40,072 nucleotides of DNA from Tepidanaerobacteraceae bacterium (GTDB lineage: Bacteria > Bacillota > Thermosediminibacteria > Thermosediminibacterales > Tepidanaerobacteraceae). The DNA is taken from contig JARRBK010000013.1 of NCBI GenBank assembly GCA_029982615.1, positions 1 to 40,072 of the forward strand, written 5' to 3'. How positions within the stretch are numbered: position 1 is the stretch's first letter; each line of letters opens with the position of its first letter. Shown piece after piece: positions 10,214-18,548 of the stretch. Under the pieces are notes generated by a model, which was given only the letters and a program-made list of their open reading frames with translations, did not search any database and had not been told where the DNA came from. The position numbers and the translations under genes are program-made.

Positions 10214-10732
10214 ATGGACAAGGTAGTTTTCACAATAACTTTGGCTCTTATAGGGGGCTTTATCGGAAACGAGCTGAAAATTCCAGCGGGAGCTCTGCTG
10301 GGTGCCATGGTATTTGTAGGCGCTGCAAATATTCTGGGAGTAAAACCCGAAATGCCGGAATCCTTTAACACCATTGCCCAGATAGTGCTGGGGGGATTTT
10401 TGGGTCTTTCCATAACCAAAGAAGTGGTAGCGGATTTAAAGGATTATATAATCCCGTCTTTGATGGTGGTGGTTATCCTGGCCATCTTCGGCATTTTTAC
10501 AGGTATGCTCGTCAGCAAAATTACCGGCATGGAGCTTTATACATCGCTTTTTGGCAGCGTGCCCGGAGGTATGCAGGAGATGATAGTGCTTTCGGAATCT
10601 TACGATGTGAATCACCCGGCAGTGGTGGTGATACAGACAGTTCGCCGGGTGCTGATTGTTGTCATATACCCGCTTTTGGTTTTTATTCTCTCAAAATATA
10701 CGGGGTATCCGCTCAATACAATAAGTAAATAG
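10214..10732 (+). CDS. AbrB-type (AmoA-like) membrane protein, half-size
   Basis: Membrane protein of the AbrB duplication family (not the AbrB DNA-binding regulator). About five helices are visible, starting at residues 3-35, with the signature GSVPGGMQEMIVLSESYDV near 115-133 and a final helix 145-165. Full members carry two such units in about 350 aa; this one has a single unit of 172 aa. ATG 10214 chosen because AAAAGGAG lies 8 nt upstream; an in-frame ATG at 10034 would give a non-membrane extension through the icd terminator. Transport role is unproven for the family. Confidence 0.8.
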   Translation: MDKVVFTITLALIGGFIGNELKIPAGALLGAMVFVGAANILGVKPEMPESFNTIAQIVLGGFLGLSITKEVVADLKDYIIPSLMVVVILAIFGIFTGMLVSKITGMELYTSLFGSVPGGMQEMIVLSESYDVNHPAVVVIQTVRRVLIVVIYPLLVFILSKYTGYPLNTISK

Positions 10733-10745
10733 CAGGATGCAGCGG

Positions 10746-10940
10746 CTATTCTCCCGGATATATCATGAGGTTTGGCCTTATGGCGACTGACTTTTCTCGT
10801 GGCATATTTTCAATTTCGTCCCGGGCGGTGCCGGTTTTCGGTATAATCTCTTCTGAAGTTTCGATGTCGTATCCTAAATCCTGGGGCTTTATGGAAAAAT
10901 GACTTGCCTCAATCCCGGTAATAGTAATTGGTTTTATCAT
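10746..10940 (-). CDS. Small hypothetical protein, 64 aa
   Basis: Not recognised. Reads MIKPITITGIEASHFSIKPQD, then a charged, proline-containing stretch ending NLMIYPGE; no signal peptide, membrane helix or cysteine. A canonical GAGGAGG lies 9 nt before the ATG on the minus strand, which is the main reason to accept it. It converges on the AbrB-type gene with only 13 nt between stops. Function unknown. Confidence 0.55.
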   Translation of the reverse strand: MIKPITITGIEASHFSIKPQDLGYDIETSEEIIPKTGTARDEIENMPREKSVAIRPNLMIYPGE

Positions 10941-11242
10941 GATTTTATGCCTCCTCGAAGGATTTATAGCTCTTTTTATAGCATTTCATAACCTAAGGAT
11001 AAATATGCACGGATTGCTGAGGTGTGAAGGATTTTTGTTTCGAAGACAGGCATAAAACATGAGCTGGAGACAATAATTATTTAGATTGTGTTAAAATCAG
11101 TCCTGTTATACCATAAATGTTCGGATACAAGCGAATTATAATCATATATAAAAATATATTGTTCGGATATTGTGTTGACTTTACAATGACACTTTGATAT
11201 TATTAATATTGCTGCAAAATTAAGCAGAGAAAGAGGGATCTT
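10941..11242. other. Intergenic region before the FAD dehydrogenase
   Basis: About 300 bases between divergent genes. It contains the plus-strand promoter at 11175-11203; nothing else definable was seen. Confidence 0.5.
11175..11203 (+). promoter_or_regulatory. Promoter of the FAD dehydrogenase gene
   Basis: TTGACT (11175-11180) and TATTAT (11198-11203) with a 17-base spacer, a good sigma-A promoter 40 nt before the gene start. Confidence 0.7.
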
Positions 11243-12753: not shown

Positions 12754-14073
<1,320 letters not shown>

Positions 14074-14401: not shown

Positions 14402-14477
14402 GAGCCATTAGCTCAGTTGGCAGAGCACCTGACTTTTAATCAGGGTGTCCCGCGTTCGAGTCGCGGATGGCTCACCA
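14402..14477 (+). tRNA. tRNA-Lys (anticodon TTT)
   Basis: Cloverleaf with acceptor GAGCCAT/ATGGCTC, D arm TAGCTCAGTTGGCAGAGCA, anticodon loop CTTTTAA (anticodon TTT), T arm CGCGTTCGAGTCGCG and an encoded CCA at 14475-14477. Confidence 0.97.
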
Positions 14478-14482
14478 TTTGT

Positions 14483-14557
14483 GGCCCCGTGGTCAAGTGG
14501 TTAAGACATCGCCCTTTCACGGCGGTAACGTGGGTTCGAATCCCGCCGGGGTCACCA
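14483..14557 (+). tRNA. tRNA-Glu (anticodon TTC)
   Basis: Acceptor GGCCCCG/CGGGGTC, anticodon loop CTTTCAC (anticodon TTC), T loop GGGTTCGAATCCC, encoded CCA at 14555-14557. Five bases after tRNA-Lys, so cotranscribed. Confidence 0.96.
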
Positions 14558-14586
14558 AAATTAATGAAAACAAAATTTTCGGCTTC

Positions 14587-14620
14587 GGCATAGATATATA
14601 ACTATGCCTATATTATTTTA
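14587..14620 (+). terminator. Terminator of tRNA-Lys/Glu unit
   Basis: GGCATAG (14587-14593) pairs with CTATGCC (14602-14608), 7-bp stem with 8-nt loop, followed by a TATTATTTTA stretch. Confidence 0.6.
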
Positions 14621-14627
14621 AGATTTC

Positions 14628-14648
14628 AAAAAAATCCGCCTTCGGCGG
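14628..14648 (-). terminator. Minus-strand terminator with no gene in front
   Basis: CCGCC (14636-14640) and GGCGG (14644-14648) with a 3-nt loop, preceded on the plus strand by seven A, i.e. a hairpin plus T run reading leftward. The segment to its right (about 14650-14715) is GC-richer than its surroundings but encodes no recognisable product, so it may be a remnant. Confidence 0.5.
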
Positions 14649-14726
14649 TTAAGTAGAAGCAGCAGATATGAAATCTGAGGTCACGCGAAAGCCGCATGCC
14701 GAAGTGGAGGGTGTTTGTTTTGAACC

Positions 14727-14754
14727 TTGACTAATTCATTTATTTTGCTATAAT
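14727..14754 (+). promoter_or_regulatory. Promoter of tRNA-Gly
   Basis: TTGACT (14727-14732), 16-base spacer, TATAAT (14749-14754), 20 nt before the tRNA. Confidence 0.8.
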
Positions 14755-14774
14755 TAAAATAGTTAAACTAATTT

Positions 14775-14849
14775 GCGGAAGTAGCTCAGTGGTAGAGCAT
14801 CGGCTTCCCAAGCCGAGGGTCGCGGGTTCGAATCCCGTTTTCCGCTCCA
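14775..14849 (+). tRNA. tRNA-Gly (anticodon CCC)
   Basis: Acceptor GCGGAAG/TTTCCGC (one G-U), D arm TAGCTCAGTGGTAGAGCA, anticodon loop TTCCCAA (anticodon CCC), T loop GGGTTCGAATCCC, encoded CCA at 14847-14849. Its 3' half is the target of a duplication found at 17274-17305, marking it as an integration site. Confidence 0.97.
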
Positions 14850-14850
14850 G
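14819..14850 (+). repeat. Direct repeat, tRNA-side attachment site (att-like)
   Basis: The last 31 bases of tRNA-Gly plus one base are repeated exactly (32/32) at 17274-17305. The following ~50 bases, including the terminator, also align without gaps but with scattered substitutions. Retention of an intact tRNA at one end and a 3' fragment at the other is the usual outcome of tyrosine-recombinase integration into a tRNA gene. Confidence 0.8.
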
Positions 14851-14859
14851 AAAAATCAA

Positions 14860-14898
14860 GGGTTCCGAGATTTTAGCTAAAAATCGGAGCCCTTTTTT
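14860..14898 (+). terminator. Terminator of tRNA-Gly
   Basis: GGGTTCCGA...TCGGAGCCC long stem (14860-14892) followed by six T. A divergent copy follows the second att repeat at 17315-17353. Confidence 0.8.
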
Positions 14899-15026
14899 GG
14901 TGCCCGTACGTAAAACTTCATCTATTTTTCCATTGCTTCACGTTCCTTTACTTCCTGCGTTACATGCGAATATATATCAGCCGCTGTAGATAGTTTTGCA
15001 TTGCAGAGCATTTCCTGCACGACTTT
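14899..15026 (-). pseudogene. Tyrosine recombinase (integrase) C-terminal remnant
   Basis: Minus-strand translation gives KVVQEMLCNAKLSTA followed by ADIYSHVTQEVKERE, the C-terminal catalytic region of phage-type integrases, where the usual text is VVQEMLGHS..STT.DIYSHV. The nucleophilic Tyr is kept (codon near 14972), but the box-C His region reads CNA rather than GHA/GHS, a loss of a key residue. The tail DEVLRTGT, typical of these enzymes, follows in another frame (14899-14922), showing a one-base deletion at about 14925. Upstream integrase sequence, including the Arg-rich catalytic part, is gone; the fragment runs straight into a coiled-coil gene. Confidence 0.75.
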
Positions 15027-15198
15027 GTAGATTTTTTGTCTTTCTCCGTGTTCATGTTCAATTTTGTCTATTCGTTGTTCTATCTGGTTAAATCTTTTCC
15101 ACATCTGATTTCATTTCATCCATGTCAATAGTGAGCTTACTTACTTGAGCAACAACAAGTTCCAGCAACTTTCTGTCAGATGCATTATTTTTGCTCAT
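15027..15198 (-). pseudogene. Frameshifted small coiled-coil protein fused to integrase tail
   Basis: A minus-strand start with GGGAGG 9 nt upstream encodes MSKNNASDRKLLELVVAQV and a heptad-like segment to DVEKI, then stops at 15088. The adjoining frame, overlapping at 15104, continues WKRFNQIEQRIDKIEHEHGE, which looks like the rest of the same short coiled-coil protein common in Clostridia, before changing into integrase sequence at about 15026. So it is a frameshifted gene whose end was replaced by a deletion junction. Function of the family unknown. Confidence 0.55.
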
Positions 15199-15283
15199 AG
15201 ATTTCATCCTCCCGTATTGAGAGTGCAGAGATACACGGACTGTGATATAATATTCTTGAAATAATTTTATGGAGGTTTTAAAT

Positions 15284-15535
15284 ATGAGCATACCACAGGA
15301 AAAGATTTTTGAGCTGCTGAAAAAATTGCCTGATGAAGATAAAAAAGAAGTGCTGAATTTCATGGAGTATTTGTATGAAAAGAGAAAAAAAGCCTTGAAA
15401 GAATTTCTTGAAAGTGTCCCGGAAGAAGATGAGGAATTATCACCGGATGAAATTGAAGCTTTAAGGCATGCTGAAAACGATACATCGGAGCCAATGGAGA
15501 AAGTCGCAAGGGAGTTAGATTTTAAATGGAAGTAG
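15284..15535 (+). CDS. Antitoxin-like protein paired with a RelE/ParE toxin
   Basis: 83-residue acidic protein starting MSIPQEKIFELLKKLPDEDK. The N-terminal helical segment resembles DUF2281-type antitoxin N-termini (compare the gene at 38626) and the C-terminus ends in an acidic, flexible toxin-neutralising-like tail (EEDEELSPDEIEALRHAEN). ATG 15284 chosen for GGAGG at 15271-15275 with 8-nt spacing. An extended -10 (TGATATAAT, 15243-15251) precedes it. It overlaps the damaged toxin gene by 10 nt, the usual toxin-antitoxin coupling. Confidence 0.7.
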   Translation: MSIPQEKIFELLKKLPDEDKKEVLNFMEYLYEKRKKALKEFLESVPEEDEELSPDEIEALRHAENDTSEPMEKVARELDFKWK

Positions 15536-15777
15536 AAATTAAGAAGGAGGCAAAGAAGGATCTAAAAGCTCTTGATGGAATAATAAGACAATAAATTGCT
15601 GATGATATATTAAAATTAATACATTTTCCTGAAACAGCGAGAGTTAAGAGACTAAAAGGCAAACCGATAAAATACAGGCTTCGTTCTGGTGACTGGCGCA
15701 TAGTTTTCAGCGTTGGCTGGGAAAAGAATAAGTTATACGTGGAATCAATTAAACATAGAGGAGAGGTTTATAAATAG
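15526..15777 (+). pseudogene. RelE/ParE-superfamily toxin with nonsense mutation
   Basis: Reading from ATG 15526 gives MEVEIKKEAKKDLKALDGII, RQ, then an in-frame TAA (15592-15594), then without frame change IADDILKLIHFPETARVKRLKG, KYRLRSGDWRIVFSV and YVESIKHRGEVYK before a normal stop. The YRLR.GDWRI.F core and SIKHR.EVYK end are typical of RelE/ParE-type mRNA interferases. Only one nonsense codon (codon 23) separates it from an 83-residue intact toxin, so the inactivation appears recent or is bypassed. The antitoxin upstream is intact. Confidence 0.8.
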
Positions 15778-15815
15778 TTTGATGACGAAATCCATCCCTA
15801 AAAGGATGTGGTAAG

Positions 15816-15948
15816 ATGCCTGAAACAGCAAACAAGCTAAATGATATTGTGTTGTCGTTTATAAACGTCCTAAAATCGAAAGGCATAATACCTGAAAAAG
15901 TGTATTTATACGGTTCCCAGGCAAGAGGCACATCAAGGCCGGACAGTG
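15816..15948 (+). pseudogene. MNT-type nucleotidyltransferase, N-terminal fragment
   Basis: About 45 residues from ATG 15816 (MPETANKLNDIVLSFINVLK) reach LYGSQARGTSRPDSDI, the GSxxRG...SDxD active-site motif of minimal nucleotidyltransferases, then sequence similarity ends where the second catalytic Asp should follow. The open frame runs on out of register to 15989. The rest of the catalytic domain is deleted and replaced by an antitoxin-like tail. Non-functional as a transferase. Confidence 0.7.
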
Positions 15949-16122
15949 ATATTAATCATACTCAAAGAATTAAAAGAAATAATGGATGATGAAATTGACG
16001 AATTTGACTTACAGCTAGCAAAAGAAGCTGAAGAAGCTTTAAAAAATGAGGAATTTATATCCTTTGAGGAGGTTTTAAAGGAGGCCGGCATTAGTGAAAA
16101 AGACTTACAAGATAATATTTGA
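15949..16122 (+). pseudogene. RelB/RHH-type antitoxin, C-terminal fragment
   Basis: In another frame from the nucleotidyltransferase fragment, the sequence LKELKEIMDDEIDEFDLQLA, KEAEEALKNEEFISFEEVLKE and AGISEKDLQDNI can be read up to a TGA at 16122. Its acidic helical character and ISFEEVLKE-GIS ending resemble antitoxins of RelBE-type pairs. It has no own start codon with a ribosome site, so it looks like a 3' fragment joined to the upstream gene by a deletion near 15949-15958. Confidence 0.5.
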
Positions 16123-16174
16123 GAAAAAAGCTGCATAAATCGGGAACAATGGATCTTGAAAGGAGAAATAAACA

Positions 16175-17185
16175 ATGCGTAGCTGGATAATCCGGGGGTT
16201 CGTATTAGTTGGGCTTATTGCCGCACTGATTATATTTGTAAAGCTCGGGGCAATAAAAACCACAGGTCTTTCTTTACAAAATCCTGAAGTCAACCTTACC
16301 GTTCTTGCAACCGCTGATTTACACGGAGGAATTCCGGCCAAACTTGCCGAATATATACAGGAGGAGAGAATTAAGGACAGAAACCTGATTCTGGTAGATG
16401 CCGGGGATTTTTACGACGCGGACAATGGAGACATCAGCAGTATACCGATGCGCCAATGGTTCAACATATGTGGCCCTAACAGAAGCCATCAGCGAAGGAT
16501 GTCACCCATTGTACGCGCAATGGCTAAACAGGGATATGATGCTGTAGTGCTGGGAAATCATGAATTTGTATCGAATAATAAGGATTATTTGGACGAATTG
16601 GTTTTAGATTTTGCCGATTGCAATATACCGGTTCTATCAGCCAATTTATATACTACATTAAACAATTACAAAGTCAATTATGTCAATCCCTATATTATAA
16701 AAGAAGTAGAAACGGACCAGGGAGTTGTAAAGGTTGGTATCCTGGGCCTTACTATCAAGGAAGTTGGAGAATCTAACGGTGCGAAAGAATTAAAAGATTT
16801 GCCACAATACAAAGGGACTCTGGAATTGACGGATATGGTTCAGGAAGTCAACGACAAAAAGTGGACTGAATGCATGAGGTATAACGGAGCCGATATCGTC
16901 ATTGCTGTGGTTCACGCTGGCGAAGAATCAGCAAAATTTAAAAATCCCGGCAACAGGATTAAAGAATTGGCACAAAGTACCAACGGCATCGATGCTATTG
17001 TAGCAGCACATACCCATGTTAATATTCCGGAGCATAGGTACAAAAATAAATCCGGAGAAACCGTTATTGTTACGCAGCCCGGTAGATATGGGCAATATTG
17101 CTCCAAAATAAGTTTTACCTTATTAAAAAGAGATGGTAAATGGGATGTGATAAAAAAGAATAGCCTTACTCATAAAACCAGTTGA
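16175..17185 (+). CDS. Membrane-anchored 5'-nucleotidase-like metallophosphoesterase
   Basis: 336 residues: an N-terminal membrane/signal anchor (7-24), then a calcineurin-like phosphoesterase domain with the metal-ligand motifs TADLHG (D48, H50), DAGDF (D78), LGNHEF (N128, H129), VVHAGE and AAHTHVN. This is the UshA/5'-nucleotidase pattern, but the C-terminal substrate-binding domain of these roughly 550-residue enzymes is absent. The protein would act outside the membrane on nucleotides or other phosphoesters. AAAGGAG precedes the ATG. It is the only sizeable intact gene in the tRNA-Gly island and ends 90 nt before the second att repeat. Confidence 0.8.
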   Translation: MRSWIIRGFVLVGLIAALIIFVKLGAIKTTGLSLQNPEVNLTVLATADLHGGIPAKLAEYIQEERIKDRNLILVDAGDFYDADNGDISSIPMRQWFNICGPNRSHQRRMSPIVRAMAKQGYDAVVLGNHEFVSNNKDYLDELVLDFADCNIPVLSANLYTTLNNYKVNYVNPYIIKEVETDQGVVKVGILGLTIKEVGESNGAKELKDLPQYKGTLELTDMVQEVNDKKWTECMRYNGADIVIAVVHAGEESAKFKNPGNRIKELAQSTNGIDAIVAAHTHVNIPEHRYKNKSGETVIVTQPGRYGQYCSKISFTLLKRDGKWDVIKKNSLTHKTS

Positions 17186-17273
17186 ATTTATTCAAGGCAA
17201 AGCTAATGCCAGAAATATGTTGCGATACTAAATACTGCAACATGTAATTTAATGATTCCGGTGTAGAAACTAA

Positions 17274-17353
17274 GTCGCGGGTTCGAATCCCGTTTTCCGC
17301 TCCAGGAATATCAAGAGTTCCGAGATTTTGTTTACATATCGGAACCCTTTTTT
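17274..17353 (+). repeat. Distal att-like repeat: tRNA-Gly 3' fragment plus terminator
   Basis: 17274-17305 is identical to 14819-14850 (T arm, acceptor 3' strand, CCA). 17306-17353 aligns without gaps to the tRNA-Gly terminator region with about ten substitutions; the hairpin (GTTCCGA/TCGGAAC) and T run are kept. There is no tRNA 5' half. Interpreted as the other end of an integrated element. Confidence 0.8.
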
Positions 17354-17812
17354 GTTGCTATTCTGGTGAGATTTTTTTTAAACTTCGTAAGTTTTTTTTA
17401 CTGCTTGTCGTTTTACTTCTTCAGCAAGAGAATAGAATCCATGTTGTGGATATTTTTAATGGCCGAAATTCTTTAGACGAGAAAATAGATACCGGGTCAT
17501 AGTAAGCAATTTTAAGAAATAATGAGAAAAGCGAAGATTTAAGCAGATAATTGCTTAAAATAGAATCATAAGTACATTTGCATTGCAAGACGTACCTTAT
17601 ATGCGACGTTATTTTTTTTAATTAGTACATAGCCGATTTTTCTAACGGTACATGATTTTATAGTCCAGTATGTAAATCGGCGAATTTGGCCAAATTCTGA
17701 AGGTGCAACGGGTTATTAATTCCACTATAATGATTAACAGAACAAATCGAAACTTCAAAGTAACTGCATCAGTTTTCGATTTGAATAAAAATCAATTATG
17801 GAGGGAAGAAAC
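17354..17812. other. Non-coding AT-rich stretch after the island
   Basis: No credible gene. A short hairpin AAACTT/AAGTTT with T run (17380-17400) and an inverted repeat GCCGATTT (17632-17639)/AAATCGGC (17674-17681) are visible. A weak antisense peptide-like stretch (AEEVKRQAVKKTYEV, minus strand near 17400) may be a gene tail but is too short to assign. Confidence 0.4.
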
Positions 17813-18187
17813 ATGTTGGACAGAAATTTAATTTTCAATCTTCTGGAAGAGAGGAATCAAAAGCCAAGATATTTTAATAACTCCAAGACGATTATCGAAA
17901 CAGATTCTGCAGGGGTGTTCTATGTCCTTGAATACAGAGGTTCCGGCAGAATTGGATGGACTGTAAGCCACAACATATTGCGGGAGCTAAAATCCTATGG
18001 GCAGTTTTGCATTTTATTCATAAATGTAACGGAAGAAGAAATGTATATCATCCTGGAATCAAACAAAGAATTTCTGGAATCCCTGGATAATCAAACCGGA
18101 CCGTATAAAATAGACAAACACGATGTGGAAAAATACAATATAAGTTTTGAAAACCTTGATGAATATCTGATTTCATTAAATTCATGA
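17813..18187 (+). CDS. Hypothetical protein, 124 aa
   Basis: Not recognised. It begins MLDRNLIFNLLEERNQKPRYF; contains mixed alpha/beta text such as GVFYVLEYRGSGRIGWTVSH and a C-terminal acidic part; no signal peptide, helix in membrane, cysteine motif or known catalytic motif. ATG 17813 with GGAGGG about 8 nt upstream. It stands alone between the island end and a bidirectional terminator. Its neighbourhood suggests accessory origin. Confidence 0.65.
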   Translation: MLDRNLIFNLLEERNQKPRYFNNSKTIIETDSAGVFYVLEYRGSGRIGWTVSHNILRELKSYGQFCILFINVTEEEMYIILESNKEFLESLDNQTGPYKIDKHDVEKYNISFENLDEYLISLNS

Positions 18188-18548
18188 TGATATTTTACTG
18201 TGATGTAAGGGAAAATTTTACTGAAAAAAGTTATTTTTTAAGTAGATTAGTTTTGTTCATATAATTGTTTACATTTAAAATCTTCATCTAGTGGCGCTAC
18301 GGCTTTGGAAAAATAAGGCTTTGGAAAAATAAGGCAATACACTTTTAAAACATGTCATAATAGTACTATAAAAAAAGTCCCGGTGACTTGAAAAGCGCCG
18401 GGATTTTATTTCTTAAATATGTTTTATCTTATGTTATGGATCTGATGTTGGAACATGCTGGCTGTGTCTAAATGTGTTGGTTTCAATAAAAGCGCTGGAT
18501 AATCATATATTCTTCTTTCAAAATATAAAAGGAGAGTACAATCACTCA
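18188..18548. other. Intergenic region with a 16-bp tandem repeat
   Basis: About 360 bases between convergent genes. The unit GGCTTTGGAAAAATAA is perfectly duplicated (18301-18316, 18317-18332) with a partial third GGC. A bidirectional terminator lies at 18366-18410. Nothing else seen. Confidence 0.6.
18366..18410. terminator. Bidirectional terminator
   Basis: TCCCGG (18378-18383) pairs with CCGGGA (18398-18403). A T-rich tract follows on the plus strand, and an A run precedes on the plus strand, giving a T run for minus-strand transcription. It serves both the orphan gene (left) and the alcohol dehydrogenase (right). Confidence 0.7.

Follow-up and report, generated by a model that had tools for sequence, protein, structure and literature searches.

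A probable decayed integrative element, from a temperate phage or a related element, at a tRNA-Gly(CCC) gene of a Tepidanaerobacteraceae bacterium

DLP12, which lies at argU of E. coli, is a cryptic ('grounded') prophage at a tRNA gene with a 47 bp partial copy of that tRNA (PMC6379469). In phages with tRNA-dependent lysogeny, the tRNA is not rebuilt at the junction and the shared core comprises only ~10 bp (PMC10865867). Here we describe a locus from the little-studied bacterial family Tepidanaerobacteraceae, located in a stretch of 40,072 nucleotides (hereafter, the window) that corresponds to contig C20 of a draft genome (1.82 Mb, 68.5% complete). Like DLP12 (PMC6379469), the locus features an element in the 3' end of a tRNA gene, a partial tRNA copy at the far border, and decay by deletion; unlike DLP12, the element has nearly vanished and its repeat extends over a transcription terminator. 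It shares a tyrosine integrase and an attB overlapping a tRNA gene with the phages that exhibit tRNA-dependent lysogeny (PMC10865867), whereas the window retains an intact tRNA and a shared block of 32 nt. The locus adds a further case to the decayed elements at tRNA genes, resembles cryptic prophages of the DLP12 kind, and in this sense is ordinary biology; the part worth following is a short signature at its border. Open literature searches returned no description of the locus or of this signature, which does not prove that none exists.

Borders of the element and their two terminators

Genes for tRNA-Lys, tRNA-Glu, and tRNA-Gly(CCC) together span positions 14402-14849 of the window (ARAGORN). 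An earlier note on this DNA claimed that an exact 32-bp repeat of the tRNA-Gly(CCC) 3' end, together with an ungapped, diverged copy of its terminator, recurs at 17274. Both claims were confirmed. The exact block comprises the last 31 nt of the tRNA and one further base (14819-14850 and 17274-17305) and forms the start of a longer repeat of 85 nt (14819-14903 versus 17274-17358) with 88% identity and a spacing of 2455 (repeat search), whose first 32 nt are identical; an ungapped hairpin and T-run are present in both copies. The length of the repeat excludes a chance origin. A direct repeat of the tRNA 3' end is present at both borders of the interval, with an intact tRNA at one of them. At the second copy (copy 2), ARAGORN called no tRNA, and the 88 nt upstream showed no similarity to the 5' part of the tRNA (score of 10 versus a shuffled mean of 11.1, p = 0.88). 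Likewise, comparison of the region upstream of copy 2 with the second tRNA-Gly of genome G009 and with the sequence upstream of the phage attP-like sites described below revealed nothing above shuffles. Two candidate traces of the other arm, a TGATTC shared ahead of the core and a single ACTGCAA (17234-17240), were rejected because they are too short. The features of the locus are compiled in Table 1.

Table 1. Features of the tRNA-Gly(CCC) locus, in positions of the window; attL, attR, P', and B' denote proposed assignments.
Feature	Positions	Strand	Basis
tRNA-Gly(CCC), intact, probably rebuilt at attL	14775..14849	+	ARAGORN; Rfam RF00005
Putative attL copy of the 32-nt exact repeat (TpsiC arm to CCA + one base)	14819..14850	+	Repeat search
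Putative phage-side (P') terminator and one TTTTTTGGTGCC repeat unit	14851..14904	+	Pattern searches; design shared by phage contigs L071 and L072
Tyrosine integrase C-terminal remnant with internal stop, overlapping the P' repeat	14886..15044	-	tblastn with integrase family panel
Coiled-coil-like ORF, broken into two frames and continuing into the integrase remnant	15031..15198	-	Reading frames
DUF2281 antitoxin-like gene, open	15269..15535	+	Pfam PF10047 E=2e-6; 86% DNA identity to G004:C133
ParE-like toxin, interrupted by TAA at 15592-15594	15526..15777	+	Pfam PF05016 E=0.0012 for the part downstream of the stop, which does not reach the curated cut-off
Two joined gene fragments: nucleotidyltransferase N-terminus and small DUF6290-like gene	15816..16122	+	Pfam
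Calcineurin-like metallophosphoesterase (Metallophos), open	16175..17185	+	Pfam PF00149 E=2e-15
Putative attR copy of the 32-nt exact repeat, without tRNA 5' half upstream	17274..17305	+	Repeat search, ARAGORN, shuffle comparison
Putative host-side (B') terminator, displaced by the insertion, without GGTGCC	17306..17353	+	Repeat search; match to G009
Extra DNA between copy 2 and Fe-ADH	17354..18546		Absent from G005 and G009

The two copies differ in a short motif. GGTGCC occurs once between positions 14000 and 18600, at 14899-14904 adjoining the intact tRNA, where it closes a segment that also contains TCAAGG at 14856-14861, 6 nt after CCA; copy 2 has GTTGCT in its place. The closest match to the terminator and tRNA end of copy 2 was the tRNA-Gly of G009 that is proximal to an Fe-ADH gene (92.5% over 80 nt). 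These two observations suggest that the tRNA-proximal hairpin is the phage side (P') and the distal hairpin the host side (B'), which is what integration into the 3' end of a tRNA predicts. A duplicated terminator is odd under a model in which the tRNA sequence alone is repeated, and is explained if attP itself carries a terminator. The locus would thus represent a worked case of an attP that brings its own terminator.

We assign a probability of roughly 0.87 to the reading that the interval is a decayed temperate phage or related integrative element that was inserted by a tyrosine integrase into tRNA-Gly(CCC). Since its attP would have carried the 3' part of the tRNA and a terminator, integration would have rebuilt the tRNA together with a phage-supplied terminator, generating attL (14819-14904) followed by the convergent integrase gene, and would have displaced the original tRNA 3' end and terminator of the host to the distal border as attR (17274-17353). 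Deletions and point mutations would subsequently have left the C-terminus of the integrase, the broken toxin-antitoxin-like genes, the phosphoesterase, and little else; with nearly everything removed, the element is presumably incapable of autonomous excision. The attL side probably persists because the tRNA transcript now ends there. The order of these events and selection on the terminator are our interpretation of the layout, as is the assignment to a phage rather than to another type of element.

Integrase remnant, phage attP-like sites, and an intact analogue

An integrase remnant is present at the tRNA-side border, in the position and orientation observed in related phages. It comprises the C-terminal ~50 codons and its best match was L082, the integrase of G075 (46% over ~56 aa, E = 2e-7; tblastn); comparison with the integrase of phage contig L071 gave 58% over 31 aa. 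Searches of the remnant alone against Pfam and PHROGs gave no significant match, and its homology was recognized by comparison with tRNA-linked integrases. The tail of the remnant, APKKGSDF, reads through the GGTGCC repeat, as do the tails GTIWAPK of L071 and L082 and GTKMAPKKGSGTG of L072. L082 comprises arm-DNA-binding, SAM-like, and catalytic domains, and the GGTGCC-type repeats are candidate arm-type sites, which would fit its arm-DNA-binding domain.

An exact search of IMG/VR for TCGCGGGTTCGAATCCCGTTTTCCGCTCCA identified two contigs, L071 (3300034520_000339) and L072 (3300033145_001682). In both, a 3' part of tRNA-Gly(CCC) that begins in the anticodon arm precedes a hairpin and GGTGCC repeats, with a convergent tyrosine integrase gene directly after them, and neither contains a complete tRNA. 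Both contigs code for an endolysin and a holin, L071 additionally for a phage-type repressor and L072 for a tail protein. Their layout suggests that the tRNA-Gly blocks are attP sites, such that an apparent attP of the same design as that proposed for the window is present on phage genomes. The two apparent attP sites share the tRNA-Gly(CCC) 3' block, the hairpin with T-run, GGTGCC, and the convergent integrase with the window, whereas their tRNA block is longer, their repeats are double, and their integrase is complete or longer. A search of viral contigs with the L071 integrase recovered, besides itself, distant relatives only.

Several observations stand against the preferred reading. The attP-like blocks of the phages start in the anticodon arm and copy 2 starts in the T arm, and the repeat in the window is therefore shorter than expected. 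In addition, the remnant is short and by itself matched neither Pfam nor PHROGs significantly, no phage structural gene is left, G009 encodes two full tRNA-Gly(CCC), copy 2 reads TCAAGA and may thus be an old scar as well, and the spacer of G005 deviates from that of the anticipated empty site.

Among 32 compared loci of the integrase family, 24 have a tRNA (ARAGORN) in convergent orientation at a distance of 32-203 bp. One of these 24 loci holds an intact element at tRNA-Gly(CCC) itself (G199:C12, 11.2 kb), albeit in a distant host and as a different element. An exact 46-bp copy of the tRNA, which begins in the anticodon arm and stops just beyond CCA, is found at its far end 11.2 kb away, and its integrase-side repeat, TTACTGCAAT, is present in two copies and recurs once inside the far end. 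The tRNA, the integrase family and orientation, and the partial tRNA at the far end are as in the window, whereas the repeat sequence (TTACTGCAAT) and cargo are different and the terminators differ between the two sides. As judged by this arrangement, the G199 element is the undecayed form of the layout proposed for the window. Since its two terminators are unlike, duplication of the terminator does not hold for the family in general. Collectively, the position of the integrase remnant, the phage attP-like sites, and the G199 analogue support the view of the earlier note that the repeats are the attL and attR of a worn-down tyrosine-recombinase element. Its expectation that some strains would carry a full-length element held in part: such an element is present at the same tRNA in G199, but it is a different element, and no full-length version of the element in the window was found in close relatives.

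An integrative mobilizable or satellite element with the same kind of integrase could have left the same borders in place of a phage. In its favor, the intact G199 analogue is only 11 kb and no structural genes were evident by eye among its ORFs; against it, the attP-like sites closest in their GGTGCC design belong to phage contigs that carry lysis and tail genes. We therefore regard this alternative as rather unlikely.

Cargo, flanking genes, and relatives of the locus

The contents of the interval bore out the previous description of an integrase remnant, a broken toxin pair, a fused fragment gene, and a phosphoesterase, with the precision that the toxin is the member broken (by the TAA at 15592) and that the antitoxin-like gene is open. 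The junction of the fused fragments lies at ~15952/15953, and the halves match different loci (G004:C204 versus G002:C39/G011:C6). No family match was detected for the coiled-coil-like ORF (Pfam, PHROGs), and no phage structural or lysis genes were identified among the ORFs between the borders (Pfam, PHROGs). The phosphoesterase is patchily distributed: the remaining family genomes that were searched gave no match at E <= 1e-30, and G053 and G094 encode relatives. This pattern suggests that it was probably acquired. The cargo may have belonged to one single element. Elsewhere in the same genome (G000:C2, L040:9229-10002 and 10563-11111), a broken paralogue of the phosphoesterase is followed by a tandem-repeat region that resembles a CRISPR array and whose translation repeats the peptide FQFLIGRLKT. 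A 30-bp promoter-like stretch before the antitoxin-like gene (15229-15258) recurs in G001 (L021:12099-12128; 90%, E = 8e-4), also in the interval between tRNA-Gly and an M1-peptidase gene, where no antitoxin gene was noticed; a stretch similar to it precedes a small gene in G002:C39.

The order of purA, a gene for a Ykof-like protein, and tRNA-Lys-Glu-Gly is common to the window and to G001, which belongs to the same genus, and in G005, from the same family, at least the purA region and the tRNAs are in the order of the window. When contigs of public genomes were searched with the Ykof-like protein, only the congener Tepidanaerobacteraceae bacterium A05DMB13 matched. G005 has one tRNA-Gly, followed after ~170 bp by Fe-ADH, an HxlR regulator, and an M1 peptidase as in the window. 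The hairpin after its tRNA-Gly differs and bears a weak resemblance to the terminator on the ADH side of the window, and its spacer deviates from the expected empty site. By comparison of these sequences, G005 is a single-tRNA site that is imperfect as a pre-integration site. The empty site anticipated in relatives was thus recovered with respect to its gene order and not with respect to its terminator and spacer. G001 also has one tRNA-Gly at the locus, followed by a candidate chemotaxis-receptor-like gene (read from DNA) and the peptidase, without ADH.

G009 differs in that it encodes two complete tRNA-Gly(CCC), one after tRNA-Lys-Glu on C14 (L022:9869-9943, - strand) and one directly before Fe-ADH on C11 (L023:8811-8885, + strand). 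C14 ends ~550 bp past its tRNA-Gly, the C11 copy is 132 bp from the contig end, and the two may possibly flank an unassembled element that carries a full tRNA; by analogy, a phage-borne tRNA, as in tRNA-dependent lysogeny, could be the source of the second gene. The earlier note had named a functional second tRNA-Gly at 17274 in relatives as evidence for simple tandem tRNA decay, and on this point G009 speaks against an integrated element whereas the single copies in G005 and G001 speak for one. Under tandem decay, an ancestor would have encoded two full tRNA-Gly(CCC) with similar terminators, the second of which lost its 5' half by deletion, and the genes of the interval would have arrived independently. 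In favor of this reading, the tRNA-Gly on the ADH side of G009 is complete, is preceded by a promoter-like TTGCAA/TATAAT, and is the closest match to the terminator of copy 2. However, neither a tRNA 5' half nor the upstream sequence of G009 has left a trace at copy 2, G005 and G001 have one copy each, and decay in place predicts neither an integrase C-terminus beside the intact tRNA nor phage sites with the same block and hairpin. We consider tandem decay improbable.

A border signature and apparent recurrent use of tRNA-Gly(CCC)

TCAAGG occurs exactly 6 nt after CCA at 14 of 24 integrase-adjacent tRNAs versus 6 of 103 others (Fisher p = 3e-8, a descriptive value only since the motif was noticed in the same loci before counting). 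Four of these six are the tRNA-Gly(CCC) loci at issue, and the remaining two, L038 and L092, have an integrase or an integrase match nearby. A later search with the TCAAGG pattern yielded 31 matches, distributed over 26 of 120 genomes, and the reversed pattern matched nowhere; this set and the earlier one partly overlap (e.g., G015, G062, and G135). Among 30 matching loci that were read, 10, including the window, have a family integrase or a remnant thereof just downstream, and several others keep the tandem repeats without an integrase. Loci of the latter kind, with TCAAGG 6 nt after CCA, include L137, L139, L140, L145, L150, and L153. The integrase-less loci are probable old integration scars at several types of tRNA, including tRNA-Gly(CCC) in G083 and G099. 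In G199, CCAAGG is present on the phage side and absent from the host side; the host-side copy 2 of the window reads TCAAGA. Host terminators could in principle share a TCAAGG-type motif.

Taken together, a short border signature seems to be a mark of similar old insertions across many related genomes. A broader interpretation, which we advance tentatively and rate at slightly below even odds, is that a clade of integrases has a fixed P' design in which TCAAGG, 6 nt after CCA, opens the terminator hairpin and is followed by tandem ~10-bp repeats before the integrase gene. After integration the tRNA would depend on the phage-supplied terminator, and the P' segment would for this reason outlive the prophage as a durable scar at many tRNAs. 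The signature could then reveal past integrations from the flanks of tRNAs after loss of the phage.

A more specific pattern, TTTTCCGCTCCAGNNNNATCAAGG followed by TTTTGGTGCC, was detected in 3 of 399 genomes (the window, G001, and G027), always at tRNA-Gly(CCC). In G013, a related TTTTTTGGTGCCAATTTGGTGCC at the same tRNA is followed by a bacterial PH-domain gene and ORFs without a Pfam match, and no integrase was found at that site. Since such scar patterns are present in the window, G001, G027, and G013, tRNA-Gly(CCC) looks to have been used repeatedly as an integration site.

Repeated use also bears on the DNA beyond copy 2, where foreign sequence probably extends past 17353. Within 17354-18546, a 129-aa ORF at 17798-18187 has no convincing relative among 101 genomes. 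Successive entry of at least two elements of the integrase family into the tRNA is compatible with the preferred reading: copy 2, with its TCAAGA, may itself be the tRNA-side scar of an older element, and 17354-18546 may be what remains of it. Such accretion would account for the GGAATATCAAG of copy 2, which is near the family signature, for the absence of 17354-18546 from G005 and G009, and for the family scars at the same tRNA in G001, G013, and G027, but neither an integrase remnant nor a third repeat was found to the right of copy 2. We view this history as possible, though on balance doubtful.

In both genera, integrases of G005 (L058) and G001 (L059) also adjoin a tRNA array of Val-Asp-Phe-Gly(GCC)-Cys-Leu, with TCAAGG soon after tRNA-Leu.
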